A stretch of DNA of 24,987 nt, taken from positions 1 through 24,987 of IMG/VR virus record IMGVR_UViG_3300046028_000687; one strand, written 5' to 3'. Origin of the DNA: a virus. Under the pieces are notes generated by a model. That model was not told the DNA's origin. It did not search any database and was given only the letters and a program-made list of their open reading frames with translations. Positions 1 through 22,752 of this stretch are shown piece after piece. The translations under genes and the position numbers were made by a program. Each line of letters begins with the position of its first letter. Position 1 is the stretch's first letter.

Positions 1-295
1 TTACATTGTTGATAGCTGTTACTATTACCGTAGCAGTACCTTGAGTAGAACCTGCCGCTGTAATAGCGTCTGTTGTTCCAAAGTCAAAATAACTAGCAGA
101 AATGACGTTAGCACCAGTAATATTACCACCAGTACCGGTGCCTAAAGTCAATGTACCTGTACTTGCATTAAACGCAAACTTAGTTGTAGTTGCCTTAGGT
201 GTTTGATTAGAACCAGTAGCACCAACCATGACAGGATACAATGCAGTAGTTGATGTATCTTGTGTAGCATTAATCGCTGTACTCGGTCCTGCTTG
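1..295 (-). other. leader-like module near the end of the visible collagen-like protein
   Basis: After the last Gly-X-Y block the frame reads [20 protein letters not shown], then [20 protein letters not shown] and [15 protein letters not shown]. The FxF-x-STGTL...NVISASY pattern repeats the N-terminal module at 8880-9325. The protein continues beyond the window. Confidence 0.6.
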
Positions 296-3200
296 ACCAG
301 AAACACCAGTAGTACCACTGAAACCTGACCAACCTGATCTTCCACTTACACCAGTAGTTCCTGAGAAGCCACTGACACCAGTAGTACCTGATGTGCCTGA
401 TATACCACTAGTTCCCGAGAAGCCACTGACACCAGTAGTACCAGAAACACCTGTCGTACCACTCCAACCAGATGTACCACTGATACCTGTAGTACCTGAC
501 CATCCCGATGTGCCACTAACACCAGTAGTACCACTAATACCAGTAGTACCACTCCATCCAGACACACCTGTTGTACCTGACGTGCCACTCCAGCCCGATG
601 TACCTGATATACCTGACCAACCACTTACACCACTTGTTCCTGATGTACCTGATGTGCCACTAACGCCTGTTGTGCCACTAGCACCTGACCAACCACTTAC
701 ACCACTTGTTCCTGATGTACCTGATGTGCCACTAACACCAGTAGTACCTGATGCACCTGACCAACCACTTACACCACTTGTTCCTGATGTACCTGATGTG
801 CCACTAACACCAGTAGTACCTGATGCACCTGACCAACCCGATGTGCCACTATCACCAACTCTACTGTAGTTAACAACTAAAGCATCATTGTTTGCAGGAG
901 CACTACCTGACAAGTATGCTACGGTTAATGTATAGTATGTTGTGTTATTGGTTATAGCAGTAACGTTAAATGCGGATTGTACAGCACTTGCATTGCTATT
1001 GTTTGTAATCAACAACTGAGCCTCGATTACGCTAGTACTCACCATCTGAGCTATCCAATTACCAAAACTTGTACCGTTAACGTCATTTACGTTAATGAAG
1101 ATAGAAGTAACGGATGCAATTGCCGCATTGTTGAAGCGTAGCGATCCATTAGAACTTACACCTGCAGTTACAGTTGAGTCAAAGTAGTAACGAACACCAG
1201 CTTTGTTACCTTGTGGGCCTGAGAATCCTGAAATACCTGTAGTACCAGAGACACCAGTCGTACCACTCCAACCTGATATACCACTAATACCAGTAGTACC
1301 ACTATATCCACTAATACCAGTAGTTCCTGAGAAGCCACTGACACCCGTAGTACCTGATGTGCCTGATATACCACTAATACCGGTTGTACCTGATGCTCCT
1401 GACCAGCCTGAAGTACCACTGATACCAGTAGTACCACTCCAACCAGAGACACCTGATGTTCCGCTTATACCACTCCATCCTGATGTACCACTTATACCAC
1501 TCCATCCTGATGTACCACTTACACCAGTAGTGCCACTCCAGCCACTTACACCCGTAGTACCTGATGTGCCTGAAACACCTGTAGTTCCTGACCAACCTGA
1601 TGTACCACTAGCACCACTCCAACCACTGACACCTGATGTACCACTCCAACCACTTACACCTGAACCACTGAAACCTGATCTACCACTGAATCCTGATGTG
1701 CCACTAAATCCTGAAGTACCTGATATACCTGACCAACCAGATACACCGCTCCATCCTGAAGTGCCACTGACACCTGAAGTACCTGAAGTACCTGACCATC
1801 CGCTAACACCTGTTGTACCTGACCAACCTGAAGTACCTGATATACCACTAGTACCTGACCAACCTGAAGTACCTGATATACCACTAGTACCTGACCAACC
1901 ACTAACACCTGTTGTGCCTGACGAACCCGATGTGCCGCTGATACCTGAAGTACCTGATATACCTGACCAACCAGATACACCGCTCCATCCTGAAACTCCG
2001 CTTGTACCTGAAGTACCTGACCATCCGCTAACACCTGTTGTGCCTGATGCTCCGCTTATACCGGTTGTGCCTGATATACCTGAAGTACCTGAGAATCCAC
2101 TAATACCGGTTGTACCCGATATACCTGATATACCTGACCAGCCTGATATACCTGATATTCCGCTAGTACCTGAGAATCCACTTACACCTGATGTACCTGA
2201 TATACCACTAGTACCTGATTCACCACTAATACCGGTTGTACCCGATATACCTGAAGTACCTGACCAGCCTGATCTACCTGATGTTCCACTTATACCACTT
2301 GCTCCACTAGCACCGCTAACACCTTGTACAAGTGCAAGAATGATTTCTAATCCATTTGTGAATCCAGTGGTACCAGTTCCACCTGAACTCAAGAATGTTA
2401 CAGGTAAAGTCCAATAATTGCCTACATCTGTTGTAGTTCCTGTTATCTCCCAACGTTGGAAGTTTGCACTATTAGACTTATCTTGTAATGTAATTGCTTC
2501 AGTCTGTGTTAACAATGCTAGATAGATATCAATATCAATACCATCGTTTGTTAACTTACTTACATTAAGTTGAGTAGCACTTGTCTGTGTTGCATTATTC
2601 CATAAGATATCGCCACTGCCTGGATCACCTGAAGTTGCAGAAGTATCAGCAAAATATTCAAAGATAGTTGAAGAAATACCAGGAATACCTGATGTTCCTG
2701 ATATACCACTAGTGCCTGAGAATCCACTAATACCAGTAGTGCCTGACGTACCACTGAATCCTGATACACCGGTAGTTCCTGAGAAGCCACTGAATCCTGA
2801 TCTACCTGAAGTTCCTGATCTACCACTTGTACCAGTGAATCCCGATGTACCACTGATACCTGAAGTACCACTGAATCCACTGACACCTGAAGTTCCTGAT
2901 ATACCACTAGTACCTGAGATACCACTAGTACCTGACCAACCACTAACACCTGTTGTTCCACTAATACCTGACCAGCCACTTATACCTGTTGTTCCCGATG
3001 TACCGGATGTTCCACTTTGGCCAGACCAGCCACTTACACCTGTAGTGCCAGACCAACCCGATGTACCACTAGTACCTGAAGTACCAGAGATGCCAGAGAT
3101 GCCACTCCATCCAGATACACCACTGATACCAGTAGTACCTGAATATCCACTAACGCCTGTTGTACCACTTGCACCACTAGTACCACTAAATCCTGAAGTG

Positions 3201-6200
3201 CCTGAAGTTCCACTTGTTCCTGAAAAACCACTTGTACCTGAAATACCCAATGTGCCACTATATCCAGATACACCAGATACGCCTGATGCGCCTGACCAAC
3301 CACTAACACCCGTTGTACCACTAGTACCACTCCAACCCGATGTACCACTGATACCCGTTGTACCTGACCAACCTGATATACCACTTGTTCCTGATACGCC
3401 TGACCAACCACTGACACCTGATGTACCTGATGTACCAGAGATACCTGACCAACCACTTGTTCCAGAGTAACCGCTAACACCAGTAATGCCGGATGTGCCG
3501 CTTTGGCCGCTCCAACCCGATGTACCTGATGTACCAGAGATACCTGACCAGCCACTGACACCCGTTGTGCCTGATGTACCAGAGATACCAGTAGTACCTG
3601 AGAACCCTGATGCACCTGAAGTACCACTATATCCACTGACACCTGTTGTGCCTGATGCGCCTGACCAGCCACTGACACCCGTTGTGCCTGTCGTACCACT
3701 GGCACCTGACCAACCACTTGTTCCTGAAACACCTGTAGTACCTGAAGCACCTGACCAACCACTGACACCCGTTGTGCCTGATGCGCCTGACCAGCCACTA
3801 ACACCTGAACCACTGAAACCACTTACGCCTGATGCACCTGATGTGCCACTATATCCAGATACACCTGTAGTGCCTGAAATACCTGAAGTACCAGACCAAC
3901 CACTAGTTCCGCTGATACCTGACGTGCCGGATACACCGGTTGTGCCTGACCAGCCACTAACACCCGTTGTACCACTAGTACCACTGATACCTGATGTACC
4001 GCTTACACCTGAGTAACCACTGATACCTGATGTACCGCTTACCCCCGAATCACCTTTAGGACCGATTGCGCCATCTAAGTTAATATACCAAGAGCTATAT
4101 GTTCCTGATCCTACAATACTCGTAATATTTACTGATAGAGCACCGGTACCGCTATTATAAGAAATAATAGGACCGTTCATCTCATTTGTAAGTGTATACG
4201 CAACAATAATGTCTTGGCCTATTGTGTATGCTAACCCTGTACCTACTGTTAAGTTTAATGTACCTAATGCAATAGTTAATGTATCTGAGCTTGTTGTAGC
4301 ATATTTGTCACCAATTTGACCACTAAAACCTGATAGACCTGATGTACCACTAATACCAGATATACCGCTGATACCTGACCATCCGCTGATACCTGATGTA
4401 CCGCTAGCACCAGTGATACCCGAGTACCCTGATGTACCTGATGTACCTGAGATACCTGACCAACCACTGACACCTGTATAACCTGATGTTCCGCTGACGC
4501 CTGAGATACCTGTTGTACCACTATATCCCGATGTACCTGATGTTCCTGATGTACCTGATGTACCGCTAAATCCTGAAATGCCTGATGTACCACTGAAACC
4601 TGATGTACCGCTAAATCCTGAAATGCCTGATGTACCACTGAAACCTGATGTGCCGCTAAATCCAGACTCGCCACTAAAGCCGCTGATACCAGATGTGCCA
4701 CTAAAACCTGAAATGCCTGATGTGCCACTGATACCAGATGTACCACTAATACCTGATGTTCCTGATGTGCCACTATATCCCGATACACCTGTCGTACCAC
4801 TGGCACCTGACCAACCACTTACGCCTGATTCACCTGATGTTCCGCTGATACCTGATGTACCACTCTCACCTGATGTTCCACTATATCCAGATTCACCTGA
4901 TGTTCCACTATATCCAGATTCACCTGATGTTCCACTAAATCCAGATTCACCTGACCATCCTGATGTACCACTGAATCCTGATGTGCCTGATGTACCACTG
5001 AATCCTGATGTACCTGATGCACCTGACCATCCACTTGTTCCACTAAATCCAGATTCACCTGATGTGCCTGATTCACCTGACCATCCACTTGTTCCACTGA
5101 CACCAGATGTACCTGATGCACCTGACCAACCACTTACACCTGTAGTGCCACTAGCACCAGTAAATCCCGATACTCCTGAAGCACCACTGAAGCCACTTAC
5201 TCCAGATTCACCTGATGTTCCACTAACGCCAGATGTACCACTGATACCAGACCAACCTGATGTTCCACTAACGCCAGATGTACCACTGATACCAGTAGTA
5301 CCACTCCATCCACTAACGCCAGATATACCAGATGTACCTGATTCTCCTGATGTCCCTGACTCACCGCTGAAACCACTTATACCTGATTCACCTGAGAAGC
5401 CACTGATACCTGACTCACCACTAAATCCACTTATACCTGAACCACTAAATCCACTTATACCTGAACCACTAAATCCACTTACACCTGATGGGCCTTGTAA
5501 CGGACCTATGTTAGACCAAGTGTCATCACCGTTACTTACGGCGCCGTCTCCTGCACTATAACCACCACCTGAATTTTCAACAATGTATAATGTACCTGCA
5601 GGTTCACCATTTGGTAAATATGTGTAATCAATCACGCTACCTGCAATATTAATAGATTCACCTGAGTAACCTGATATACCAGAAGTACCTGATTCACCAC
5701 TAAAACCACTTATACCTGACTCACCACTGAAACCACTTATACCTGAATCACCGCTGAATCCACTTACTCCTGAATCACCACTGAATCCAGATATACCTGA
5801 AGTACCTGAGTCACCGCTATAACCACTAATACCTGAAGTGCCTGATTCACCACTAATACCTGTATAACCGGAAACACCTGAAATACCTGTCGTACCCGAG
5901 ATACCTGAGGTGCCTGATGTGCCTGATGTGCCACTGAAACCACTTACGCCTGAACCACTATAACCTGAGATACCTGTCGTACCCGAGATACCTGATGTAC
6001 CAGTAAAGCCACTAATACCTGATGTGCCTGATACACCAGTAAAGCCACTTACACCTGATGTGCCGCTTACGCCAGACTCGCCACTCCATCCGGATGTTCC
6101 ACTGATACCTGATTGACCAGAAATGCCAGACTCACCACTCCAACCCGATGTACCGCTTGCACCTGATGTACCAGAGATACCAGAAGTACCTGAAATACCT

Positions 6201-9200
6201 GACCATCCTGAAATACCTGTAGTACCTGAATAGCCCGATGTGCCACTTACACCAGAGACACCCGTTGCACCACTCCAACCAGATACACCAGAAATACCAG
6301 TAGTACCTGATTCCCCACTATAACCTGACTCGCCACTATAACCTGACTTGCCACTATAACCTGAATCACCGCTATAACCTGAGATACCAGTAAAACCACT
6401 TATACCCGTATAACCTGAGATACCAGTAAAACCACTGATACCTGTATAACCTGAGATACCTGAGATACCTGATGTACCACTAATACCCGATGCACCCGAG
6501 ATACCTTCTACTAGAGCAAGAATCAATGGTATATCATTTGCAAAGCCTGTTGTACCTGTACCACCGGACGCTTGTAATGTTATAGTTAATGTCCAATATC
6601 CACTACCTTTGATCGGAGTACCGTCGATGAGCCAACGTTGAAAGTTAGCACTGTTTGATTTATCTTGTAGTGTAATAGTTTCAGTATCATCTAGTGTTGA
6701 CAGATACAAATCAATATCGATTCCGTTACTCGTTACATTGTTTACATTAATTTGATTGGCACTTGTCTGAGTAATATTGTCCCATAACAGTTTACCACTG
6801 CCTGGATTACCTGTCAAGTCAGTAGCATTAGCTGTATACTCAAAGATAGAAGATGATACACCGGCTATACCACTGGCGCCACTGAAACCACTTACTCCTG
6901 ATGCACCTGAGATACCGCTAATACCTGAAGCTCCACTGAAACCACTAATACCTGTGTAGCCACTAATACCGGTAGTTCCTGATTCTCCTGATGCTCCGCT
7001 GATACCGCTAGTACCTGAAGCTCCACTGAAACCACTAACACCTGAACCACTAAAACCACTAGTACCAGATTCACCAGATATACCAGACCAACCGCTTACA
7101 CCGGTAGTTCCTGAATATCCAGAAACACCTGAGATACCTGATGTTCCACTGATACCTGAGATACCACTAGTACCGGATTCACCACTATATCCACTTACAC
7201 CGGATGTGCCTGATTCGCCACTCCACCCACTTGTACCACTGTATCCTGATGTACCACTGATACCCGAGATACCTGACCAACCACTGACACCTGTAGTACC
7301 TGAGGTACCGCTGATACCGCTAGTACCAGATTCTCCTGATGTGCCTGATGATCCGGATTCACCTGAAATACCTGAATCTCCACTGAAACCACTGATACCA
7401 GATGTGCCACTCCATCCAGATGTGCCACTAATACCAGTAGTGCCTGACCATCCCGATGTACCTGAGTACCCTGATGTACCACTAATACCACTAGTACCGG
7501 ATTCTCCGGATGCGCCACTAGTACCTGATTCTCCTGATGTGCCTGAAGCTCCGCTGAAACCACTAATACCTGATGTACCACTAATACCTGATGTACCACT
7601 GATACCACTAGTACCTGACCATCCAGATGTACCTGATTCACCGGATGATCCGGATTCACCACTATAACCTGAGATACCTAATGCACCACTAGTACCTGAT
7701 GTGCCACTAATACCTGATGTTCCTGAGGCACCTGACCATCCAGAAACACCTGATCCAGAATATCCTGATATACCTGAACCACTAAATCCACTTACACCTG
7801 ATGGACCTTGTAACTGACCAATATTAGTCCAAGTATTATCACCATTACTTACTGCACCATCACCTGCACTATAACCACCACCTGAATTTTCAACAATGTA
7901 TAATGTACCTGCAGGTTCACCATTTGGTAAATATGTGTAATCAATCACGCTACCTGCAATGTTGATGCCTCGGCCCGATTGACCTGATATACCAGAGAAA
8001 CCTGATGTGCCAGTAAATCCAGAAATACCAGAGCCAGACATACCACTATATCCAGAGACACCTTGTATACCGCTAGTACCTGACTCACCTGAGAAGCCAC
8101 TGACACCTGTTGTACCACTAAATCCTGAGATACCAATAGTACCACTAAATCCTGAGTCACCGCTATAACCACTAATACCTGAAGTGCCTGATTCACCACT
8201 AGTACCAGATGAACCTGATGCACCTGACCAACCACTTACACCAGACGTACCTGATAAACCACTAGTACCTGAGGCTCCCGATGTACCTGAGGCTCCCGAT
8301 GTACCTGAGATACCAGTAGTACCACTCCAACCTGATGTGCCACTATAACCTGATGTACCTGAAATTCCTGTTGTACCTGATATACCTGATGCGCCTGACC
8401 ATCCACTTATACCTGATGTACCGCTAGCGCCTGAATAACCACTGATACCTGATGTGCCACTAGCGCCTGTATAACCTGATGTGCCAGTAAAACCACTGAC
8501 ACCGGTTGTGCCGGAATAACCACTGATACCTGATGTGCCTGACCAGCCTGATATACCTGAACCACTAAATCCTGAGATACCAGTTGTTCCGCTTAAACCC
8601 TTTTGACCAGAAGCGCCTGTATAACCTGATATACCTGAACCACTAAAACCACTAAGACCTGTATAACCTGATTTACCTGATATACCACTAAGACCTGTTG
8701 TTCCACTAAATCCTGATCTACCTGAGAAGCCACTGACACCAGTGAATCCACTAAATCCTGAAATACCTTGCTGACCGCTAGTGCCAGACCAACCTGATTT
8801 GCCACTAGCTCCTGATGTACCACTAGTGCCTGAAGTTCCTGATATGCCAACAATACCTGTAATATTACTACCATCACCATATAGATAACTTGCTGATACT
8901 ATATTAGCAGTTACGTTACTTTCAGCAACAAGATAATCTATATTCAATGTACCTGATGTTTTGTCAAAAGTAAATGCAGAATTACCACCAAAAATACCTG
9001 CGTCATTAAACTGTACTTGTGTATTTGATCCTCCCGGTACTCCACTACCTCCACCGTTACCGGTTTGTGCGGTCCAGCTTAAGTTGCCGGAGCCATCAGT
9101 TTGCAAAACGTATCCGTTTTCGCCACCAAGTATCGATACGTTACCAACGTCACCCAAGGCAATATTGCCGGATATGTTGAGTGTGTTTGCTGATACACTA

Positions 9201-9325
9201 TTAGCAACTACGTTGCCACTAGGTACCATAACGTTAGTAACAACGTTACCATTAGCGTCAATTACGGTGTTTGCGGGTATGCCTGTACTAAAGCCACCCA
9301 GAGAGTTAAACGGTTCAGCTGCCAT
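1..9325 (-). CDS. giant modular collagen-like (Gly-X-Y) fibre protein, 3' end outside window
   Basis: One frame stays open from the ATG at 9325-9323 to the window edge, at least 3108 codons. I translated every non-repeat segment and spot-checked the repeats; the phase never changes. The N-terminal ~150 residues are a typical phage fibre/structural leader (motifs TQVQFNDAG and [10 protein letters not shown]). Seven Gly-X-Y blocks follow, about 2280 residues in total, separated by six globular insertions and ending in a further leader-like module. Position X is often W, F, Y, I, V, L, T or A; position Y is almost always Ser or Thr; Pro is rare. Likely role: a virion fibre or surface filament, by analogy with collagen-like phage fibres. 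An AGGA ribosome site lies about 7 nt before the ATG, and a late-promoter motif lies at 9356-9363. The tail or head attachment point is unknown. Gene identity as a structural fibre is well supported; receptor binding is inference. Confidence 0.88.
611..826 (-). repeat. 72-nt tandem repeat (3 copies) in a Gly-X-Y block
   Basis: Units start at 611, 683 and 755, each 72 nt (24 residues, eight Gly-X-Y triplets). The second and third are identical. The first differs near its end, and a partial fourth starts at 827. The unit length is a multiple of 9, so the triplet register is kept. Confidence 0.85.
865..1195 (-). other. globular insertion module E
   Basis: About 110 residues, containing [40 protein letters not shown] and [18 protein letters not shown]. 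It resembles module C in outline (a beta-rich domain ending in a YYTL/YWTL strand) and may be a distant relative. It lies between two Gly-X-Y blocks. Confidence 0.6.
2320..2690 (-). repeat. globular insertion module C, copy 2
   Basis: Contains [67 protein letters not shown] and [10 protein letters not shown]. It is diverged at amino-acid level from the copy at 6505-6868 but clearly homologous. This pair is therefore older than the module B pair, whose core is identical at DNA level. Confidence 0.75.
4045..4320 (-). other. globular insertion module D ([12 protein letters not shown] type)
   Basis: About 90 residues containing [47 protein letters not shown] and [14 protein letters not shown], then [10 protein letters not shown] leading back to Gly-X-Y. 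This module recurs in phage fibre and tail proteins of aquatic and other phages (recalled, not searched). It occurs once here. Confidence 0.7.
4563..4652 (-). repeat. 45-nt tandem repeat (2 copies) in a Gly-X-Y block
   Basis: Units at 4563-4607 and 4608-4652 differ at one base. A third unit begins and diverges after about 11 nt. Again the period (15 residues) preserves the Gly-X-Y register. Confidence 0.8.
5485..5670 (-). repeat. globular insertion module B, copy 2
   Basis: Near-duplicate of the module at 7797-7972. The only differences are at the edges (for example [14 protein letters not shown] here against [14 protein letters not shown] there). It interrupts the Gly-X-Y shaft between two repeat blocks. 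Confidence 0.75.
5550..5647 (-). repeat. 98-nt exact direct repeat, copy 2
   Basis: Identical to 7863-7960 at every base I compared, 2313 nt away in the same orientation and the same reading frame. Confidence 0.85.
6505..6868 (-). repeat. globular insertion module C, copy 1 ([14 protein letters not shown] type)
   Basis: About 120 residues with [67 protein letters not shown] and [10 protein letters not shown]. It is related to the module at 2320-2690 along its whole length, so it is a mobile or duplicated fibre domain. Each copy is followed directly by a Gly-X-Y block. Confidence 0.75.
7797..7972 (-). repeat. globular insertion module B, copy 1 ([10 protein letters not shown] type)
   Basis: About 58 residues without Gly-X-Y periodicity, containing [39 protein letters not shown] and GPSGVSG at its end. 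The second copy is at 5485-5670. The two share a perfect 98-nt stretch. Many phage fibres carry such small beta-rich modules; the function is unknown. Confidence 0.75.
7863..7960 (-). repeat. 98-nt exact direct repeat, copy 1
   Basis: Base-for-base identical to 5550-5647 by eye, inside the two module B copies. The flanking bases differ on both sides. Perfect identity including silent positions indicates recent duplication or gene conversion. Confidence 0.85.
8880..9325 (-). other. N-terminal leader module of the collagen-like protein
   Basis: Residues 1-149. It contains TQVQFNDAG near residue 100 and the sequence [14 protein letters not shown], followed by [22 protein letters not shown]. This arrangement is common at the start of phage fibre and structural proteins, where it precedes a repetitive shaft. 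A related module returns at 1-295. It probably anchors or trimerises the shaft (inference). Confidence 0.7.
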
Positions 9326-9412: not shown

Positions 9413-9778
9413 ATGCTAACAAGACAACCTCATCGCCCATTCTGTGAAAACTGTAAAGTATCACTAGCAAAAACTAATGGATTAAGCAAGCATGGCTTTA
9501 CTAAGTGGCACAAATACTGTTCATCGTGTGCAAAAGCAATTTATGATTCAAAGTATGGGCATAGATTGAATAAGAAACAAAAGTGTGATAAGTGTAGCTT
9601 TGTTCCGCAGGATAAGTGTCAACTTGATATTGTTTACAAAGATAGTAACAAGAAAAATAAAGACAAGTCTAACATACGTACATTATGTGCTAATTGTAAT
9701 AGGTTGTTTCAAAAGAAACTACGAGAGCAGAAAAAGACTCTGTTAGATATAACAGTAGATGCAGATGTTATTTTATGA
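9413..9778 (+). CDS. HNH-like zinc-ribbon protein, catalytic His apparently lost
   Basis: 121 residues and basic. Three CxxC pairs (C11/C14, C36/C39, C58/C61) precede the segment CQLDIVYKDSNKKNKDKSNI, which is followed by LCANCNRL (C92/C95). This matches the small phage HNH proteins that usually read C-Q-L-D-x-D-H-x-D-G-N...N-L-x-T-L-C-A-N-C-H. Here the D-H pair at about 74-75 is V-Y and the final His is Asn. The fold and zinc site look preserved, but nuclease activity is doubtful. The gene stands alone on the plus strand between two minus-strand genes, and its 3' end overlaps the desaturase by 11 nt. No strong ribosome site is visible; a TTAAATAA lies about 35 nt upstream. It could be a DNA-binding remnant or a homing-type cargo gene. 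Confidence 0.7.
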   Translation: MLTRQPHRPFCENCKVSLAKTNGLSKHGFTKWHKYCSSCAKAIYDSKYGHRLNKKQKCDKCSFVPQDKCQLDIVYKDSNKKNKDKSNIRTLCANCNRLFQKKLREQKKTLLDITVDADVIL

Positions 9779-10469
9779 TTGCTAACTTTAGAAACGCTAG
9801 CATTCTCAAATACATGTAACCAATGTCAAATTCAAATTTTGTACGACTCAACTTTGCACTAGCGGGATTTAAGTGATGGTTGTTATGTAATTCTTCTCCA
9901 CCAATGACTATACCCCAAGGACTAATGTTTCTACTGTTATCTTTAGTTTCCCCATTACGATAACCTAAGTAATGACCTACTCCATTTATAACACCTGCTG
10001 CCCAAAATGGTATCCAAATCATTTGAACTAACCATATAACGACACCTATCATACCAAACAACAAAACATCTATCACTAACATTAACACAACTCCTAAGTA
10101 ATTATAAGGAGTATAGATTTTTCTCTCTATCCAATCGTCTGGTGTTCCTCTGCCAAAGTTAACAATCATCTTAGCGTTCTTACCTGCAAGGTAGTAGTAA
10201 TAAACTCCCCGTAGTAATATGTTCCATATACCGTATACAACAGGACTATGCGGATCACCTTCTTTGTCTGTAGTACTGTGATGTTTTCTATGTATAGCAA
10301 CCCACTGTTTAGTAATCATACCGGTTGTTAACCAGAGCCAAAAACGCATAAAGTGTTCTAGTATTGGATGAAACGTGATTCCTTTGTGTGCTTGGCCACG
10401 ATGTAAGAATAGAGTAACACATACTATAGTGATGTGTGTAACTATTAAAGTGTATAATATTGCGTTCAT
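9768..10469 (-). CDS. membrane fatty-acid (acyl-CoA type) desaturase
   Basis: 233 residues from the ATG at 10469. It carries the three histidine boxes of the membrane di-iron desaturases: HRGQAH (23-28), HRKHH (60-64) and HNNHH near the C-terminus in GGEELHNNHH, plus the conserved GHYLGYRNGETKDNSRN. Hydrophobic segments lie at about 4-22, 38-56 and 130-165. Enzymes of this family insert a cis double bond in acyl chains, typically at delta-9, using O2 and an electron donor; none is encoded nearby. As a phage gene it is an auxiliary metabolic gene that may change host membrane fluidity (inference). The longer frame to 10556 starts with TTG and would run through a terminator, so I reject it. CATAAATA lies only 4 nt before the ATG. 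Confidence 0.85.
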   Translation of the reverse strand: MNAILYTLIVTHITIVCVTLFLHRGQAHKGITFHPILEHFMRFWLWLTTGMITKQWVAIHRKHHSTTDKEGDPHSPVVYGIWNILLRGVYYYYLAGKNAKMIVNFGRGTPDDWIERKIYTPYNYLGVVLMLVIDVLLFGMIGVVIWLVQMIWIPFWAAGVINGVGHYLGYRNGETKDNSRNISPWGIVIGGEELHNNHHLNPASAKLSRTKFEFDIGYMYLRMLAFLKLAIIK

Positions 10470-10473
10470 TAGA

Positions 10474-10481
10474 TATTTATG
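10474..10481 (-). promoter_or_regulatory. late-promoter-like CATAAATA just before the desaturase
   Basis: Minus strand reads CATAAATA, ending 4 nt before the ATG and just after the terminator of the capsid unit. If it is used as a -10-type late element, transcription would begin at or next to the start codon (leaderless mRNA). The position between a terminator and a gene supports use, but the spacing is unusual. Confidence 0.45.
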
Positions 10482-10486
10482 CCCAA

Positions 10487-10512
10487 TAAAAAAGAGCACC
10501 GAAGTGCTCTTT
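10487..10512 (-). terminator. rho-independent terminator after gp23
   Basis: Nine-base perfect stem (10491-10499 with 10504-10512) closing a TTCG tetraloop on the minus strand, the very stable C(UUCG)G type, followed by a T-tract. It lies 57 nt past the gp23 stop and ends the capsid transcription unit before the desaturase. Confidence 0.85.
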
Positions 10513-10527
10513 GATTCCTTCCCGTAA

Positions 10528-10545
10528 CACAGACCGTAGTCTGTG
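10528..10545 (-). other. stable hairpin between gp23 and its terminator
   Basis: Seven-base perfect stem (10528-10534 with 10539-10545) and a four-base loop, with no T-tract. It lies in the 3' untranslated part of the gp23 message and could protect the very abundant capsid mRNA from 3' exonucleases (inference). Confidence 0.6.
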
Positions 10546-10568
10546 CTCTCGAACAAGAAGATTTCGAC

Positions 10569-16621: not shown

Positions 16622-19600
16622 TCAAACTTGTGAATACTGTAATATCTTACCTTGTATATCATTACTTTCACTCATTTTGTTTACCAATTCAGTCATTGAT
16701 TTAGCGACTTCAGCCATAACACTGTCATCTGCTCCTTCTACTATCGGTGCAGCCGCATTTTGAGCTAAGTCTTTTCCAAGTTGTTGAACAACAGTCTTGA
16801 ATTCTTCTTGCAATTGCTTGATAGCATCAGTAAGAGATGTTTTATCCATATCCATAATCTCTTTCAATCTATCACCTAATATATTGCCAGCATCTGGGCC
16901 AAATTGTTCTGTTCCCACTTTAGCCGGGCCCATGTCGTAATTGGTTGCCATTCCCGAATGTAATATCTTCTTCCAAGCTTCAGTGTCAGTGATTGTCTGA
17001 GTTTTTTCGTCATATGCCCCAATCTTACTTGCCATTCCTTGAACAGCTTTCAAGTCAGTAGACATAGGACCTGCATTGTATCCAGTATATTCATTCATGC
17101 CAGCGAACGTCGGACCCATTTCTTCTGAGAACAACTTTACTGATTTCTTAGCTATCGCAGTAGTATCTATTGCAGGAATTTCATTAGTATCTCCACCAGT
17201 AGTTACATTCCCCGCCATCTTACTAAAAGATGCAAGTTCTTTCTTAGCTAAACTTTCAATCTTATCAGTAGGTATTACTGTCTCATTGCCATGCAATTCA
17301 ACAATGTATCCTGTTTCTGGACCCTCAAATACTCCGCCTTTTTGTGCTTTTGGTATGTCCGACTTTTTAGTATCGGCAGATGCGACCATTGTACCACCTG
17401 ATGATGGTTGAATTCCTTGAATATCTTTAGAGCCTGCATATGCAGTAACCTTATTCATGACTTCACCGGCTAAATAACTGCCCTTCTTGCGAACATCTCC
17501 ACCTGCAATCTGACTAGTAGCTAATACATTTGCATCTTGTTGGGACATATTCTTTTCATCTATGCCCATAGCCTTAGCCATTCTAGCCTTGCCTTTTTCC
17601 ATATACCAGGCTACAACTTCAGCCGCAACCTTAGGATCATTAACTAAGTCAGGATCTTTAACTAGTCTATCATCACCAAACACTGCCTGTGATGCTTGTG
17701 CATAGTTGCTCTTACCGGTAAGTTGAATGTATCCACGACCTCTATATTTCCATCCATCACCGGGGTCAAGATTACCCATGCTACGACCAATCTTAGTATC
17801 CTTGCCGTACATGAACTCGCCCATGCCTTCTTCACTAGACTTGATTTTGTTTAATTCCTCATCAGTCTTTCCGGCTGCTCTTGATCCAAATATGCTACGA
17901 ATACGTTCATTACTTGTCTTGCTGTAATTAAGATTTTCATTGACGACCTTGCCACCGGATTCTTTCATGACGTTGCCCAACACAGCATTAAGATATTTTT
18001 CATCTCCCATGCCACGCTTCATCAATGCGGCTTTAACGTCACCTAGATTCTGTTTAACATCTTGGTCTTTAGCTGGCTTTACTCCAGTACCACCACCCAT
18101 ACCTGCTAGAGGAGGTGCTGATGGAGGCTTCATACCCAAGCCACTATCTGCGGGTTTTTCTGCCGGTTTTCCACCTCCACCACTACTGCCAAAAATTCCG
18201 CCTAAGCCTTCAGGTGGTTTTATTCCTGTACCACTACCTGTTTCCTGTGTTACTACTTTGATGTTGCTTGCAAATTTAGACAAGTCAAATCCAACTGACC
18301 TGAATACATCTTTGAGTTTATCATTCGCACCTTTAAGTCCGTCAACTTGATCCTCTGATGCTTCAAGCTTTTCTTCTTCTAATTTGTTTAGCTTGAGGAT
18401 AGAAGTAGATAACTTGTCAAAACTAGCATCTGTATCACGCATGGTTTTCTTTAACTCTGCTAGTGCTTCAATTTCTTCTTCTAATTCTTCATCACGCTCC
18501 GCGGAGTTATCACTCAATCCGGCAGTTTTCATACCAGTGCCCAACGGGGTAATCATTTCTTTACCATGTAGCTCTACCGGATATCCTGACTTAGGTCCGT
18601 CGAATATACCACCAATTGAGGCTTTGGGTGCATTTGCCTTTGCTTTCTCATTTGCAATTGCTCTATCCATTTGTTGTAGGATATTTTTGTACGCAAGTTC
18701 GCTTTGTGCGCTTTTTGAAACTGGGCCCTTTTTCTCAAATATTTCTCGTGTTTCTTCTAGTTCTTTTACTTTTCTTTGTATAGCATCATTACTTGTATCT
18801 TTTGGTGCTTCTGGTGCTTTTGCTACTACAGTCGGTTGATCCGGTGCTTTTGCTACTGCTGTCTGGGGCACCGCTTTTACTTCCTGTACAGGTCTATCTA
18901 TCTTAGCTGCGCCAACTTTTTCTGCACGTTCTGCAAATTCTTCTTTTGCTTTCATGTCAGCAATCATTCGTGCTACATTTTCAGCTCCCTGTACTCTTTG
19001 TGCTGATGCGTCTTTAGGAAGATTCTTTTTGCGTGATTCCAATTCTTTATCAAATAATTCTTTCTTTCTTTCAAGATATTCTTTGTATAATTTTTCATCT
19101 TTCTTTGCAAGTTCCATCTCACTAAATGTAAATGATTTAGTTTCGGATTTGGTTACTGATTTAGTAGCTACATTTCCTGTAGATTCCGGTGTTCCTAGTT
19201 TTGTCATTGGTGTCATTGCACCTAATGCTTTCATTAGATTTGAATCTTCTACTTTGACAATGGATACTTTAACTACATCACTTCCTGCTTTGGTATCTTT
19301 AGCAAGATTATCGTCTTTCTTAGCTTCTGCTTTCTTAGAAGCTTCGTCAACTTTCTTGTCAGCATCACTAGTCATCTTAGCGATGCCGCCACCAGCAACT
19401 TCACCAATAGCTTTACCTGCTTTACTACCCAGCCAACCGCCTAATGCGGCTCCAATGATACCACCTACTGCTGTACCTAATACAGGAACAACAGAACCAA
19501 TTGCGGCACCTGCGGCTGCACCTTTTAGTGCGCCGGCTGTACCACCAATTGCTGTTCCTGCACCACCGCCAACTGCTTCGCCCTTTTCAACTCTAGCTTC

Positions 19601-21625
19601 TTCTTTTGTTATCGTACCTTCTTTAAGGTCTTTATCAGCTTTCTTTATACCTTGATATGCATCTATTACACCTGAACCAACTGACATTGCAGTACCGATC
19701 AATGGTGCTGCCTTTGACAATCCTGCTAATGGTCCTGCTAATTTAGATAGCGCTGATGCGGCTGTTGTTGCGGCTGTTGCGGCAGATCCTGCACCTCCTA
19801 CTGCACTAGTTGCACCTACTGCACCCTGTGCTGCTGTTGCGCCTGCTTTCCAACCTGATAGTGATCCGGCAGCTGGGCCGGCACGACCAGGCAAACCTTT
19901 GTTCATTAAGTCACCAATGCCACCTACTGCGGAGCCTACTCCCATCTTACCTAACTTATACGCGGCTATTCCTGCCGCGGCTGCTAAGGCTGTACTAGCG
20001 GCGCTGGCTGCAAATGTTGACTTAGTAAATGGATTCAGTGCTCCCAATAAATCGTCTTTTAGACCACGTAATGCACGTTCCAATGATAGTACAGTGTTCT
20101 CTGTATCTTTTGCACCATCACGCATTGGTTTGCCAGCAGCATCTAAAATCTCGCCTTGTTCTTTTCGTCTTCTTATCTGTTCTTCTGTGGCTTTATCTTC
20201 TGCCGCTATACGTTTTTTACCTTCTTCTGTCTGAGACTCCATGAATCTAGCGGCATTTTTTCTTGCCTGGTTATCAACACCCATAGATTCTTGAATCTGC
20301 TTCGAGGCGTCGCCGTATGCATACATACTTTCGCCCATCTTTTTGTTAACATTGGTAGTAGATTTAGCAATTTCTCCTTGATAATCACGTAATGCGCTCT
20401 GTCCTTTGTTTAGTTTTTCTGCAACACCTTCAATATTTCTACCTGCCGTCAAGAAATGAGCATTTGCTTGGGTGTAAACTGGTGCACTGTCTCTAGAAAT
20501 ACTCTGTAGCAACGCAGTAGAATCTCTTGCACTTTCGTTAGACTGAGACCACATAGCCATTTCTTGTTTAGATTTGATGACTTGATCTATTTGTGCCGCT
20601 CTCTCTTTTAATTCTTTTTGTCGTATTGGATCAGTTTCTTTTGCCGCCCGTGATTCCAACTCAGAACGTTCCATAGATTTAGTGTGTATGTATGCGTTAA
20701 AGTTTTCTTGAGCCATTGCAGCATCAAGTGCCGATTGACTCTCTTTTATCGACATACCAGTTAATTCTTTGAGCTTGACTAACTGATCTACATATTCCAA
20801 TGATGCTTTTTGTAATTCTTTGGGACTTTTTGACAAAGCCATACCAGCATTAGAGCTTTGTTTAACATACATCGCCTGAGCTTCAGTTAATTGCTCTTGA
20901 CTAATTCCTAAACGATTGTAAGATTGTATGTTCTTTTCACCAACTGCGGTCATCTTGCCAAACAGCTTAGTACCTTCAGCAGAATTAACACCTAATGCGT
21001 TAATATCTTTGCCGACAATTTTTACAGAATTGACAAATTTATCTAAGTTATCTACTGTGTATCCTGAGGCGCGACCAAGTTGTCTGACTTGCTCAGTCGT
21101 CATGTTAGTAGTACCGCCCATTTCACTCAAGCTATCAAAAGCTTTGAGCATCTTCTGAGTTTGGTCGAGTAACATAGGGGCCATAACACTAAAACCCTTA
21201 ATTACACCTCCAATTGTATTACCTAAAACACCAAAGTGTTTTCCAACAGACATTGCAACATCACCTACGCCGCCGATTGTACTACCCCACTTAGTCAGGT
21301 CTGCTGATGTATTTGATAGTGTACTAGATAGATTGAATAGTCCTTTAGTGGCTGAGGCGCCTGCTTCTTTGAGTGCTTTAGTTGCGGCCGCTGCCTCTCG
21401 TTCCCCAGCAATTCTAGCTTTTTCAGCTTCGGATAGGTTGTTTAGATTATCATTTAATTTATCAAACGCATTTCCAGTACGCTTTACGTTTTGGTCAAGC
21501 ATCCATTGCTCACGCTGTTCTGTAGTCATTGTTTTTACAAAAACACCGGCTAAGGAGTTAACAGCATCCGTTTGTATGCGTAGCTGTTCTAAGATTTCTT
21601 GACTGGTTTGATTATTTTCATCCAT
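16622..21625 (-). CDS. tape-measure-like tail protein with embedded GH19 lysozyme/chitinase-like domain
   Basis: 1667 residues from the ATG at 21625; the TTG extension to 21637 is rejected. Residues 1-520 are mainly helical and coiled-coil. About 530-750 is rich in Ala and Gly with hydrophobic glycine-zipper stretches (TAIGGTAGALKGAAAGAAIG), as in tape-measure proteins that enter the inner membrane. Near 1005-1025 and 1430-1455 are two copies of a GxFxGPxxGYxVELHGxE motif, typical of tape measures. About 1190-1395 is a GH19-like domain: MKESGG with the likely catalytic Glu, NENLNYS with a possible second Glu, FGSR, and GDGWKYRGRGYIQLTG. It probably sets tail length and locally cuts peptidoglycan during DNA entry, a job done by gp5 in T4. 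T4's own tape measure gp29 is only about 590 residues. An ACTAAATA motif lies 25 nt upstream. Confidence 0.82.
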   Translation of the reverse strand: MDENNQTSQEILEQLRIQTDAVNSLAGVFVKTMTTEQREQWMLDQNVKRTGNAFDKLNDNLNNLSEAEKARIAGEREAAAATKALKEAGASATKGLFNLSSTLSNTSADLTKWGSTIGGVGDVAMSVGKHFGVLGNTIGGVIKGFSVMAPMLLDQTQKMLKAFDSLSEMGGTTNMTTEQVRQLGRASGYTVDNLDKFVNSVKIVGKDINALGVNSAEGTKLFGKMTAVGEKNIQSYNRLGISQEQLTEAQAMYVKQSSNAGMALSKSPKELQKASLEYVDQLVKLKELTGMSIKESQSALDAAMAQENFNAYIHTKSMERSELESRAAKETDPIRQKELKERAAQIDQVIKSKQEMAMWSQSNESARDSTALLQSISRDSAPVYTQANAHFLTAGRNIEGVAEKLNKGQSALRDYQGEIAKSTTNVNKKMGESMYAYGDASKQIQESMGVDNQARKNAARFMESQTEEGKKRIAAEDKATEEQIRRRKEQGEILDAAGKPMRDGAKDTENTVLSLERALRGLKDDLLGALNPFTKSTFAASAASTALAAAAGIAAYKLGKMGVGSAVGGIGDLMNKGLPGRAGPAAGSLSGWKAGATAAQGAVGATSAVGGAGSAATAATTAASALSKLAGPLAGLSKAAPLIGTAMSVGSGVIDAYQGIKKADKDLKEGTITKEEARVEKGEAVGGGAGTAIGGTAGALKGAAAGAAIGSVVPVLGTAVGGIIGAALGGWLGSKAGKAIGEVAGGGIAKMTSDADKKVDEASKKAEAKKDDNLAKDTKAGSDVVKVSIVKVEDSNLMKALGAMTPMTKLGTPESTGNVATKSVTKSETKSFTFSEMELAKKDEKLYKEYLERKKELFDKELESRKKNLPKDASAQRVQGAENVARMIADMKAKEEFAERAEKVGAAKIDRPVQEVKAVPQTAVAKAPDQPTVVAKAPEAPKDTSNDAIQRKVKELEETREIFEKKGPVSKSAQSELAYKNILQQMDRAIANEKAKANAPKASIGGIFDGPKSGYPVELHGKEMITPLGTGMKTAGLSDNSAERDEELEEEIEALAELKKTMRDTDASFDKLSTSILKLNKLEEEKLEASEDQVDGLKGANDKLKDVFRSVGFDLSKFASNIKVVTQETGSGTGIKPPEGLGGIFGSSGGGGKPAEKPADSGLGMKPPSAPPLAGMGGGTGVKPAKDQDVKQNLGDVKAALMKRGMGDEKYLNAVLGNVMKESGGKVVNENLNYSKTSNERIRSIFGSRAAGKTDEELNKIKSSEEGMGEFMYGKDTKIGRSMGNLDPGDGWKYRGRGYIQLTGKSNYAQASQAVFGDDRLVKDPDLVNDPKVAAEVVAWYMEKGKARMAKAMGIDEKNMSQQDANVLATSQIAGGDVRKKGSYLAGEVMNKVTAYAGSKDIQGIQPSSGGTMVASADTKKSDIPKAQKGGVFEGPETGYIVELHGNETVIPTDKIESLAKKELASFSKMAGNVTTGGDTNEIPAIDTTAIAKKSVKLFSEEMGPTFAGMNEYTGYNAGPMSTDLKAVQGMASKIGAYDEKTQTITDTEAWKKILHSGMATNYDMGPAKVGTEQFGPDAGNILGDRLKEIMDMDKTSLTDAIKQLQEEFKTVVQQLGKDLAQNAAAPIVEGADDSVMAEVAKSMTELVNKMSESNDIQGKILQYSQV

Positions 21626-21636
21626 GTATTTTACCA

Positions 21637-21644
21637 AATAAATA
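21637..21644 (+). promoter_or_regulatory. late-promoter-like AATAAATA for gp26-gp51
   Basis: Plus-strand AATAAATA lies 53 nt before the gp26 ATG in the divergent gap. It overlaps the leader region of the opposite gene, giving face-to-face promoters. Confidence 0.4.
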
Positions 21645-21697: not shown

Positions 21698-22528
21698 ATG
21701 GCATTAGATAACAACCCGCTGAAACAGTATTTCCGTCGTCCATCAGTATATGTAAAATTACCTAGCGGTGGTAAATATTATCCGCAGGGAGTAATAGACA
21801 TGCCCGAAAACGGCGAGATCCCAATCTTCCCTATGACAGCTATAGATGAGATTACTACAAAAACACCTGACGCACTGTACAACGGTACAGCTATGGCAGA
21901 ATTAATGAAAAGCTGTGTACCAAACATCAAAGACCCATGGGCAATCAATAGTATGGACTTAGATGCTATCCTAATTGGCATTCGTGCTGCTGGTGGCGGA
22001 AATGATATGGAGATCGAATCCGAATGCCCTGCATGTAAGGACATTGGAAAATATGGTATAAACCTCATCAACCTGTTGAGTCAGATGAGACCTGGAAATT
22101 ATGACACTGAACTAGAAACCAATGATCTAAAGATCAAATTTAGACCATTGTCATATAAAGAAATGAACGAGGCCAGTATTGGTCAAATTGAAATTCAACG
22201 TGTGTTTATCATGCTAGAAAACGAACCTGATGAAGAAGTTCGTAAAACACGTGGCCAAGAAGCACTAAAGAGAATAACTCAATTAACAATCAAGTTGTTA
22301 ACTGGTGCTATCGAATACATTAATACTCCTTCTGCCCGAGTAGATAACAAAGAATTCATCTTAGATTTCTTGAATAACTGTGATAAAAATATGTATGTTA
22401 CATTGCGTGATTACAATGCAAATTTAAAATCACAAACGGAAATCAAACCATTACGAATTAAATGTGTACACTGTACTAATGAGTACGAACAACCATTTAC
22501 ATTGAATACATCAGATTTTTTCGCCTAA
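21698..22528 (+). CDS. gp26: baseplate hub assembly protein gp26
   Basis: 276 residues. LPSGGKYYPQG at the start and IPIFPMTAIDEITTKTPDAL mark the gp26 family of T4-like phages. Two CxxC pairs (C110/C113 and C256/C259) could bind zinc together. In T4, gp26 is needed to assemble the central baseplate hub. It is longer than T4 gp26 (208 residues). The start is the first ATG, with AAGGA 8-9 nt upstream. Its last codons contain a T TTT TTC slippery site; gp51 follows in the -1 frame, so a share of ribosomes may make a 351-residue gp26-gp51 fusion. Transcribed divergently from the tape-measure gene. Confidence 0.88.
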   Translation: MALDNNPLKQYFRRPSVYVKLPSGGKYYPQGVIDMPENGEIPIFPMTAIDEITTKTPDALYNGTAMAELMKSCVPNIKDPWAINSMDLDAILIGIRAAGGGNDMEIESECPACKDIGKYGINLINLLSQMRPGNYDTELETNDLKIKFRPLSYKEMNEASIGQIEIQRVFIMLENEPDEEVRKTRGQEALKRITQLTIKLLTGAIEYINTPSARVDNKEFILDFLNNCDKNMYVTLRDYNANLKSQTEIKPLRIKCVHCTNEYEQPFTLNTSDFFA

Positions 22529-22564
22529 CGCTTCTCCGCCTTGACTCCGAAGGCATACAGAAGC
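22516..22564 (+). promoter_or_regulatory. candidate programmed -1 ribosomal frameshift signal
   Basis: The heptamer T TTT TTC (22516-22522) is in the zero frame of gp26, three codons before its stop. After a 7-nt spacer comes a two-part stem-loop: six pairs (22530-22535 with 22559-22564) around a small internal loop, then five pairs (22538-22542 with 22550-22554) and a 7-nt loop. Slippery heptamer, spacer and structure all match the standard form of -1 frameshift sites. Confidence 0.75.
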
Positions 22565-22752
22565 TACTGGATGGTTATGAAAAAGCCGTCTCAGAGATAA
22601 AGAAAAGTGCCATGTCCATGGCATGGTATATGAGGGGAGGTGCGACATATGAAGATGTTCTGAATATGTCCACTTCCGAACGTGAGCAATTAAAAGAACT
22701 AATAGACGGTAACCTAGAAGTAACTAAGAAGTCTGGACTCCCGTTCTTCTGA
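22522..22752 (+). CDS. gp51: gp51-like baseplate hub assembly catalyst, reached by -1 frameshift
   Basis: 76 residues after the shift, beginning RLTLLRLDSEGIQKLLDGYE and containing MAWYMRGGATYEDVLNMS and the C-terminus TTKKSGLPFF-like VTKKSGLPFF, as in gp51 of T4-like phages. In T4, gp51 acts catalytically in hub assembly and is not part of the finished baseplate. The frame is open back to a TGA at 22480-22482 but holds no ATG, GTG or TTG until 22612, which is inside the conserved part. The natural way to express it is therefore by frameshifting from gp26. A 46-residue product from 22612 is the alternative but would lose the first helix. It ends at TGA 22750-22752. Confidence 0.82.
   Translation, partial: RLTLLRLDSEGIQKLLDGYEKAVSEIKKSAMSMAWYMRGGATYEDVLNMSTSEREQLKELIDGNLEVTKKSGLPFF

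Follow-up and report, generated by a model that had tools for sequence, protein, structure and literature searches.

How is the reading frame that continues beyond gp26 in this phage genome translated? The window analysed here, a stretch of 24,987 nucleotides (positions 1 to 24,987 of IMG/VR virus record IMGVR_UViG_3300046028_000687), carries a relative of the bacteriophage T4 gene 26, and the frame that follows it is offset by −1 and overlaps its 3′ end. An earlier note on this DNA had suggested that ribosomes enter this frame by slipping on a run of T residues. The evidence set out below makes it very probable that a tail-assembly chaperone is produced in two forms, short and long, by a programmed −1 frameshift at T TTT TTC, in the manner of G and GT of phage lambda. 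The features on which this reading draws are the following.

16622..21637, − strand: divergent from gp26; encodes a large tail protein that has a GH19-type lysin domain and is a candidate for the tape measure (ORF, profiles).

21698..22528, + strand: gp26, predicted short chaperone form (TAC-N), 276 aa, PF12322 / phrog_150 (ORF, profiles, structure model, BFVD).

22516..22522, + strand: slippery heptamer T TTT TTC, in frame with gp26 (sequence, relatives, synonymous invariance).

22522..22752, + strand: predicted TAC-C, the C-terminal domain read in the −1 frame; its 76 aa begin with the R that follows FF and end at the stop codon 22750–22752.

22523..22529, + strand: 7-nt spacer between the heptamer and the stem-loop.

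22526..22528, + strand: gp26 stop codon TAA, three codons past the start of the heptamer's TTT codon.

22530..22564, + strand: putative stimulatory stem-loop, with an outer helix of 6 bp (22530–22535/22559–22564) and an inner helix of 5 bp (22538–22542/22550–22554).

The gp26 gene starts with ATG at 21698 and ends with the codons GAT TTT TTC GCC TAA. The layout described in the earlier note is borne out: T TTT TTC stands in frame at 22516–22522, three codons before the gp26 stop; the downstream frame is −1 and has no ATG, GTG or TTG before the ATG at 22612; and the two-part stem-loop begins exactly 7 nt beyond the heptamer. The −1 frame is open from 22483, following a stop at 22480–22482. The gp26 gene thus carries, in its zero frame, the slippery heptamer that programmed −1 frameshifting calls for, and a slip there is predicted to give a product reading ...SDFF-RLTLL..., with 275 + 76 = 351 residues. 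We also considered a separate gp51 gene in the window, and rejected it because its first available start, at 22612, loses the conserved beginning of the domain.

Aligning the junctions of related phages, as the earlier note had proposed, shows that the slippery heptamer is conserved far beyond the clade of the window. Among IMG/VR relatives, of which we took the best 80 of 97 confirmed (33–100% protein identity to the window), an in-frame T TTT TTC stands near the gp26 stop in all 78 that are readable, its TTT codon lying 9 to 18 nt upstream of the stop; the remaining two (L024 and L050) end before the gp26 stop and were left out. The same heptamer is present in 80/80 cyanophage-type loci (the best 80 of at least 591, comprising 35 representatives under 95% identity), in 4/4 phiAS5-type loci, in 2/2 readable loci from the PA5oct query and in 3/3 RaK2-type loci. 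These sets include phiAS5 itself (L171) and RaK2 itself (L188), and leave out one locus from the PA5oct query that has no stop (L177). An in-frame heptamer with six T residues is found in 20 of the 22 named phage records read, the exceptions being T4 and Pseudomonas phage Cygsa01; its carriers include RaK2, Atu_ph07, PA5oct, Sf-FS3, IC12 and phiAS5, and RL38J1 has the variant T TTT TTG. Thirteen further jumbo phages carry it, XacN1 and RAS14 as T TTT TTT and 11 as T TTT TTC. In jumbo phages the distance from heptamer to stop is variable, reaching 39 nt, which indicates that the heptamer itself is conserved and not its distance to the stop.

Heptamers of the form X XXY YYZ are not rare in these genes. 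In the genes of 49 representatives (under 95% protein identity) we counted 62 others in frame, six of them with six T residues, so the weight of the argument rests on invariance at one place rather than on presence. We set aside a chance estimate of ~2e-34 for the 49 representatives, because it treats kin sequences as independent and so overstates the case. More telling is the behaviour of the codons themselves in the first 32 representatives (down to L054), the window's nearer clade, which were used for the alignment and for the analyses of stem pairing and synonymous conservation. GAT, TTT and TTC are each identical in 32/32 sequences. For excess synonymous conservation they occupy ranks 1–3 of 88 well-conserved codon columns and are the only ones of these without synonymous change, with an observed fraction of identical codons of 1.00 against an expected 0.66–0.68; the next column has an observed value of 0.77. 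Elsewhere in the 49 representative genes phenylalanine is encoded 339 times by TTT and 138 times by TTC, and the nine other Phe-Phe pairs use four codon combinations. This pattern indicates selection on the nucleotides of the heptamer, beyond the constraint that a Phe-Phe protein sequence imposes.

The frame entered by the predicted slip bears the marks of a coding sequence. We computed pN/pS between the gp26 stop and the window's first ATG for 13 close relatives, which were not thinned at 95%; it is 0.37 in the −1 frame, against 1.34 and 1.31 in the two others. For about 66 codons past the gp26 stop the −1 frame is open in 49/49 representatives, and each other frame in 0/49. It is open in all readable relatives of the best 80 of 97, and in one of them (L060) runs off the available sequence. 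A tblastn search places the −1 frame next to gp26 in 29 phage records, with E values from 1e-8 to 6e-2. The matches are strong in Atu_ph07 and Phosso (1e-8 to 9e-8) and weak in the RaK2 and 121Q groups (3e-4 to 6e-2); a Pfam/PHROG search of the frame gave no family above noise (best E 0.015). Judged by its substitutions and its openness, the −1 frame evolves as protein-coding sequence that directly continues gp26, even 5′ of the window's first start.

A coding frame of this kind might instead be translated as a separate protein, through translational coupling or reinitiation near the gp26 stop. Relatives offer some grounds for this. In the interval from −10 to +47 around the gp26 stop, 22/49 window-clade representatives have at least one ATG, GTG or TTG in the −1 frame, and in 10 of the 49 this is an ATG overlapping the stop. 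All 80 cyanophage-type loci (the best 80 of at least 591) have a −1-frame ATG at +5 of the stop, and in the annotation of Sf-FS3 gp26 is followed by a gene of its own for a 'baseplate hub assembly catalyst'. Against this, 27/49 representatives have no ATG, GTG or TTG in the same interval. The missing start to which the earlier note pointed holds for the window and is not general among its relatives. Reinitiation has no need of synonymous invariance in the heptamer codons, and in T4 the domain is fused. Starts near the gp26 stop in some relatives mean that reinitiation could there supplement the fusion with a free C-terminal domain; in the window, with no start before 22612, it could not yield the conserved domain, the first part of which would be dropped. 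As the explanation of this locus we consider reinitiation improbable.

Two further observations concern such starts in other phages, and the second also speaks for reinitiation. In the cyanophage-type loci (L091–L170) the +5 ATG, which occurs besides the heptamer, may give a third product, a free C-terminal domain, or may be a mere conserved methionine. In Cygsa01 (L089, around 3309) a gp26 relative is found with no heptamer and with a TAATG overlap before a small gene, and this lineage seems to use translational coupling in place of frameshifting. The combination that would speak against a frameshift, namely an independent start without a heptamer, is found in two more distant phages, Cygsa01 and T4, the latter with two genes; we read both as lineages with a changed strategy.

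We examined the RNA downstream of the heptamer for a stimulatory structure. The segment 22523–22590 folds at −19.7 kcal/mol (z −2.45), and 3/200 shuffled sequences are at least as stable. Over the 32-sequence alignment, standard pairs occupy 92.7% of the cells of the outer helix and 69.4% of those of the inner helix, and the outer stem shows compensatory changes from G-C to A-U in three sequences and from C-G to U-A in four. None of 500 shuffles reaches the number of paired cells, and 2/500 reach the 25 cells that carry changes on both sides; sliding the partners by 1–3 columns lowers the paired cells from 82.1% to at most 62.5%. Two other counts on the alignment lie at shuffle level, namely pairs altered in both partners (4; 306/500) and further pair types (15; 424/500). 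From this 32-sequence alignment RNAalifold gave no consensus fold, and Rfam at gathering thresholds gave no match within the window. More divergent relatives have a different fold downstream of the heptamer. The outer stem is likely to be functional in the window's clade, and structure other than the outer stem is uncertain.

The T run raises a second alternative, in which transcriptional slippage on six T residues shifts some of the mRNAs to the −1 frame. In its favour, all readable gp26 genes of window type and cyanophage type have such a run near their end (best-80 lists). However, six T residues are short for polymerase slippage, and the run is exactly six long in 159/159 loci counted (the window, 78 relatives and 80 cyanophage-type loci, the latter two from the best-80 lists). 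It also keeps the X XXY YYZ phase, and in the window's clade it is followed by a stem-loop at a spacing typical of ribosomal frameshift stimulators, which usually stand some 5–9 nt beyond the site. Transcriptional slippage appears still less likely than reinitiation. A third reading takes the −1 frame for an ORF that arose by chance or has decayed, and gp26 for the sole product; the lack of a Pfam or PHROG match above noise might be cited for it. It merits practically no credence and was rejected on the pN/pS of 0.37 and the frame openness in 49/49 representatives, with the tblastn matches in 29 phage records also standing against it. Programmed ribosomal frameshifting thus remains the best explanation for the expression of the −1 frame.

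The predicted products are related to two T4 proteins. Window gp26 matches PF12322 with 49.9 bits (cut-off 24.5; E 4.3e-13) and phrog_150 with E 6.2e-15, which places the short form in the gp26/gp51 family, as would be expected for a T4-like chaperone. T4 gp26 and gp51 both belong to PF12322 (E 8.8e-64 and 3.9e-52) and both to phrog_150. Their genes lie on opposite strands, and gp51, at 249 aa, has an extra C-terminal stretch. The gp26 core alone matches T4 gp51 with E 9.9e-8. When the frames of 17 cyanophage-type representatives are joined at the heptamer, the alignment of the resulting profile to T4-type gp51 spans 234 columns and takes in the C-terminus (E 1.1e-12); the cyanophage C-terminal domain alone aligns with E 1.3e-8. 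The window-type fusion in turn matches the cyanophage fusion with E 8.6e-8, and the window-type C-terminal domain alone matches the cyanophage domain with E 0.0038. Direct comparison of the window type with T4 gp51 is weaker (E 2.4e-4 for the fusion, 0.0036 for the C-terminal domain alone), and a profile of pooled C-terminal domains matches the gp51 C-terminus at 0.00035. It is thus by way of the cyanophage fusions that the C-terminal domain is found to be homologous to the C-terminus of gp51.

These relations change the name to be given to the −1 frame. The earlier note had labelled it gp51, which is wrong for T4, where gp51 consists of a gp26-like core plus such a C-terminal domain. The family and profile matches argue instead that the short form corresponds to T4 gp26 and the frameshifted long form to T4 gp51. 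The proposal of a short and long pair of the G/GT kind fits these family relations and, as far as the accessible text of the two papers goes, independent literature (PMC10274946, PMC12846349).

T4 gp26 ends with Phe-Phe encoded as TTC TTT, which is not slippery. In 11 T4-type loci (L082 and L178–L187) eight gp26 ends could be read, L180 being cut off and none being recognised in L183 and L185. Seven of the eight have Phe-Phe at the homologous place, encoded as GAR TTC TTT, and one (L184) has Leu-Phe. The GAR TTC TTT in L082, L178, L179, L181, L182, L186 and L187 may be the relic of a slippery site since lost.

The structure model of gp26 (21698–22525) has a pLDDT of 89.5; with E 1.7e-23 it matches a 'Baseplate hub assembly protein, bacteriophage T4-like' in BFVD. 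The model of the C-terminal domain is helical (pLDDT 87.5). Against the PDB the gp26 model gave nothing at E <= 0.001, and VIA-align returned rows that are mostly helical pairs, the best of them a helical pair with Z 8.8 over 55 residues. A fold search with the C-terminal domain gave common helical arrangements among 55 chains (best Z 5.7), and profile searches of solved-structure sequences with two alignments gave no plausible relative (best E 0.034 and 0.25); none of these searches matched a chaperone of solved structure. Besides gp26-family proteins, the gp26 model matches, in BFVD, long uncharacterized jumbo-phage proteins of Erwinia Special G, phiEaH2, Ralstonia RSF1, RP12 and phiRSL1 (E 2e-8 to 4e-4), which are candidate chaperones.

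Divergent from gp26, on the − strand, lies the gene for a large protein (16622–21637). It matches phrog_181 endolysin (E 5.6e-29), phrog_1047 tail lysin (E 1.5e-13) and PF00182 (E 1.7e-6), and has a weak match to phrog_167 tape measure (E 3.5e-8). The earlier note had taken it for the tape-measure gene, in the position expected beside a chaperone pair. That expectation does not hold, since the usual place of chaperone genes is directly 5′ of the tape-measure gene, on the same strand. A large divergent neighbour of gp26, of ~700–1075 aa, is found in 12/16 named jumbo relatives (RaK2, PA5oct, XaC1, BF, XbC2, Phosso, 121Q, Munch, CBB, GAP32, SCTP-2 and Hallingskeid). XacN1 and RAS14 have a divergent neighbour of ~260 aa, Atu_ph07 has a small divergent ORF and Vibrio 2.275 a neighbour on the same strand; in phiAS5, RL38J1, IC12 and Sf-FS3 the chaperone stands among same-strand genes, several of which are tail genes. 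When four syntenic large neighbours (PA5oct, RaK2, BF and Phosso) were scanned for tape-measure families, BF's alone matched. Given the weak profile match in the window, the match in BF alone and the varied contexts, the divergent neighbour is tentatively read as the tape-measure protein. A search for the T4 late-promoter motif, allowing one mismatch, was uninformative (26 matches against 37.8 expected by chance).

Elsewhere in the window, a single open frame of at least 3108 aa occupies 2–9325 on the − strand and runs off the window end. Most of it is made up of SGxSG-type (collagen-like) repeats, between which lie non-repeat modules, and it perhaps encodes a giant fibre or decoration protein. 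A 262-aa ORF on the − strand (9768–10556) has HxxxxH and HxxHH motifs, which we take to resemble those of fatty-acid desaturases, and an adjoining 400-aa ORF may encode the major capsid protein.

We propose the following mechanism. In this T4-like, jumbo-type phage, gp26 would serve as the short tail-assembly chaperone (TAC-N). A minority of ribosomes would slip back one base at 22516–22522, probably aided by the stem-loop at 22530–22564, and would read 76 more codons to yield the 351-residue long form (TAC-NC). On the model of lambda, many short forms would coat the tape-measure protein and a few long forms would recruit tail-tube subunits; polymerisation of the tube would then start, and both forms would leave before the virion is complete.

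The relation to T4 suggests a history for the pair, on which our confidence is evenly divided. The two-gene set of T4 may have arisen by duplication of a frameshifting gene like that of the window. One copy would have hard-fused the C-terminal domain, giving gene 51, and the other would have lost its slipperiness, giving gene 26 with a fossil Phe-Phe (GAR TTC TTT). The jumbo clade would have kept the frameshift, its gene standing head-to-head with that of a large tail protein which is presumably the tape measure. The ratio of short to long form would then be set by the heptamer and stem-loop alone, and the dose relative to the tape measure by the divergent promoter region.

Vladimirov, Gautam and Davidson are said to have named genes 26 and 51 in 2022 and to have kept frameshifting for several groups of T4-like phages. 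The T4-like TAC-N/TAC-NC of that study (Virology 566:9-15), as described in its title and in texts that cite it, likewise comprises a short and a long chaperone form; the window differs in belonging to a jumbo and environmental clade, with the gene divergent from that of a large tail protein. In the accessible text of the PRFect paper (PMC10274946), some T4-like phages carry a short gene together with a long, fused one, and that of the Adele paper (PMC12846349) describes poly-T −1 frameshift signals as known in TAC-N genes of T4-like phages. Among the papers listed by our literature search, none treats the junction of the window's clade. Within the portions of these sources that were accessible, the principle is already in print, and what is new here is a strongly supported further example in a jumbo-phage clade.

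Among the closest known systems, T4 resembles the window in its proteins: gp26 and gp51 are both in PF12322 like window gp26, and the C-terminal domain of gp51 is homologous to the −1-frame domain of the cyanophages. It differs from the window in having two genes on opposite strands and in the non-slippery TTC TTT at the Phe-Phe of gp26. According to the accessible parts of a review of T4 (PMC3004832), gp51 does not occur in the finished particle; the evidence given there on gp26 is conflicting, since it is tabled as a hub assembly chaperone yet genetic studies are cited for its presence in the hub. At the TAC locus of phage Adele (Vandenendeviridae, Andersonviridae), a −1 frameshift is likewise proposed, on an invariant poly-T GTTTTT near the 3′ end of TAC-N; as described in the available text (PMC12846349), that locus belongs to other phage families, lies upstream of the tape-measure gene and has a different motif.

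In most phages that we read, a small 'hypothetical protein' or 'hub assembly catalyst' annotated after gp26 would be the C-terminal part of a fused protein, a rule that may be of use in annotation. The slippery site of lambda is G GGA AAG; it differs from that of the window, as does the gene order. In lambda, gpG and gpGT bind the tape-measure protein and the T part binds the tail-tube protein, as given in the accessible text of PMC5009743. The locus in the window supports the newer view that T4-like phages share their chaperone strategy with other long-tailed phages.
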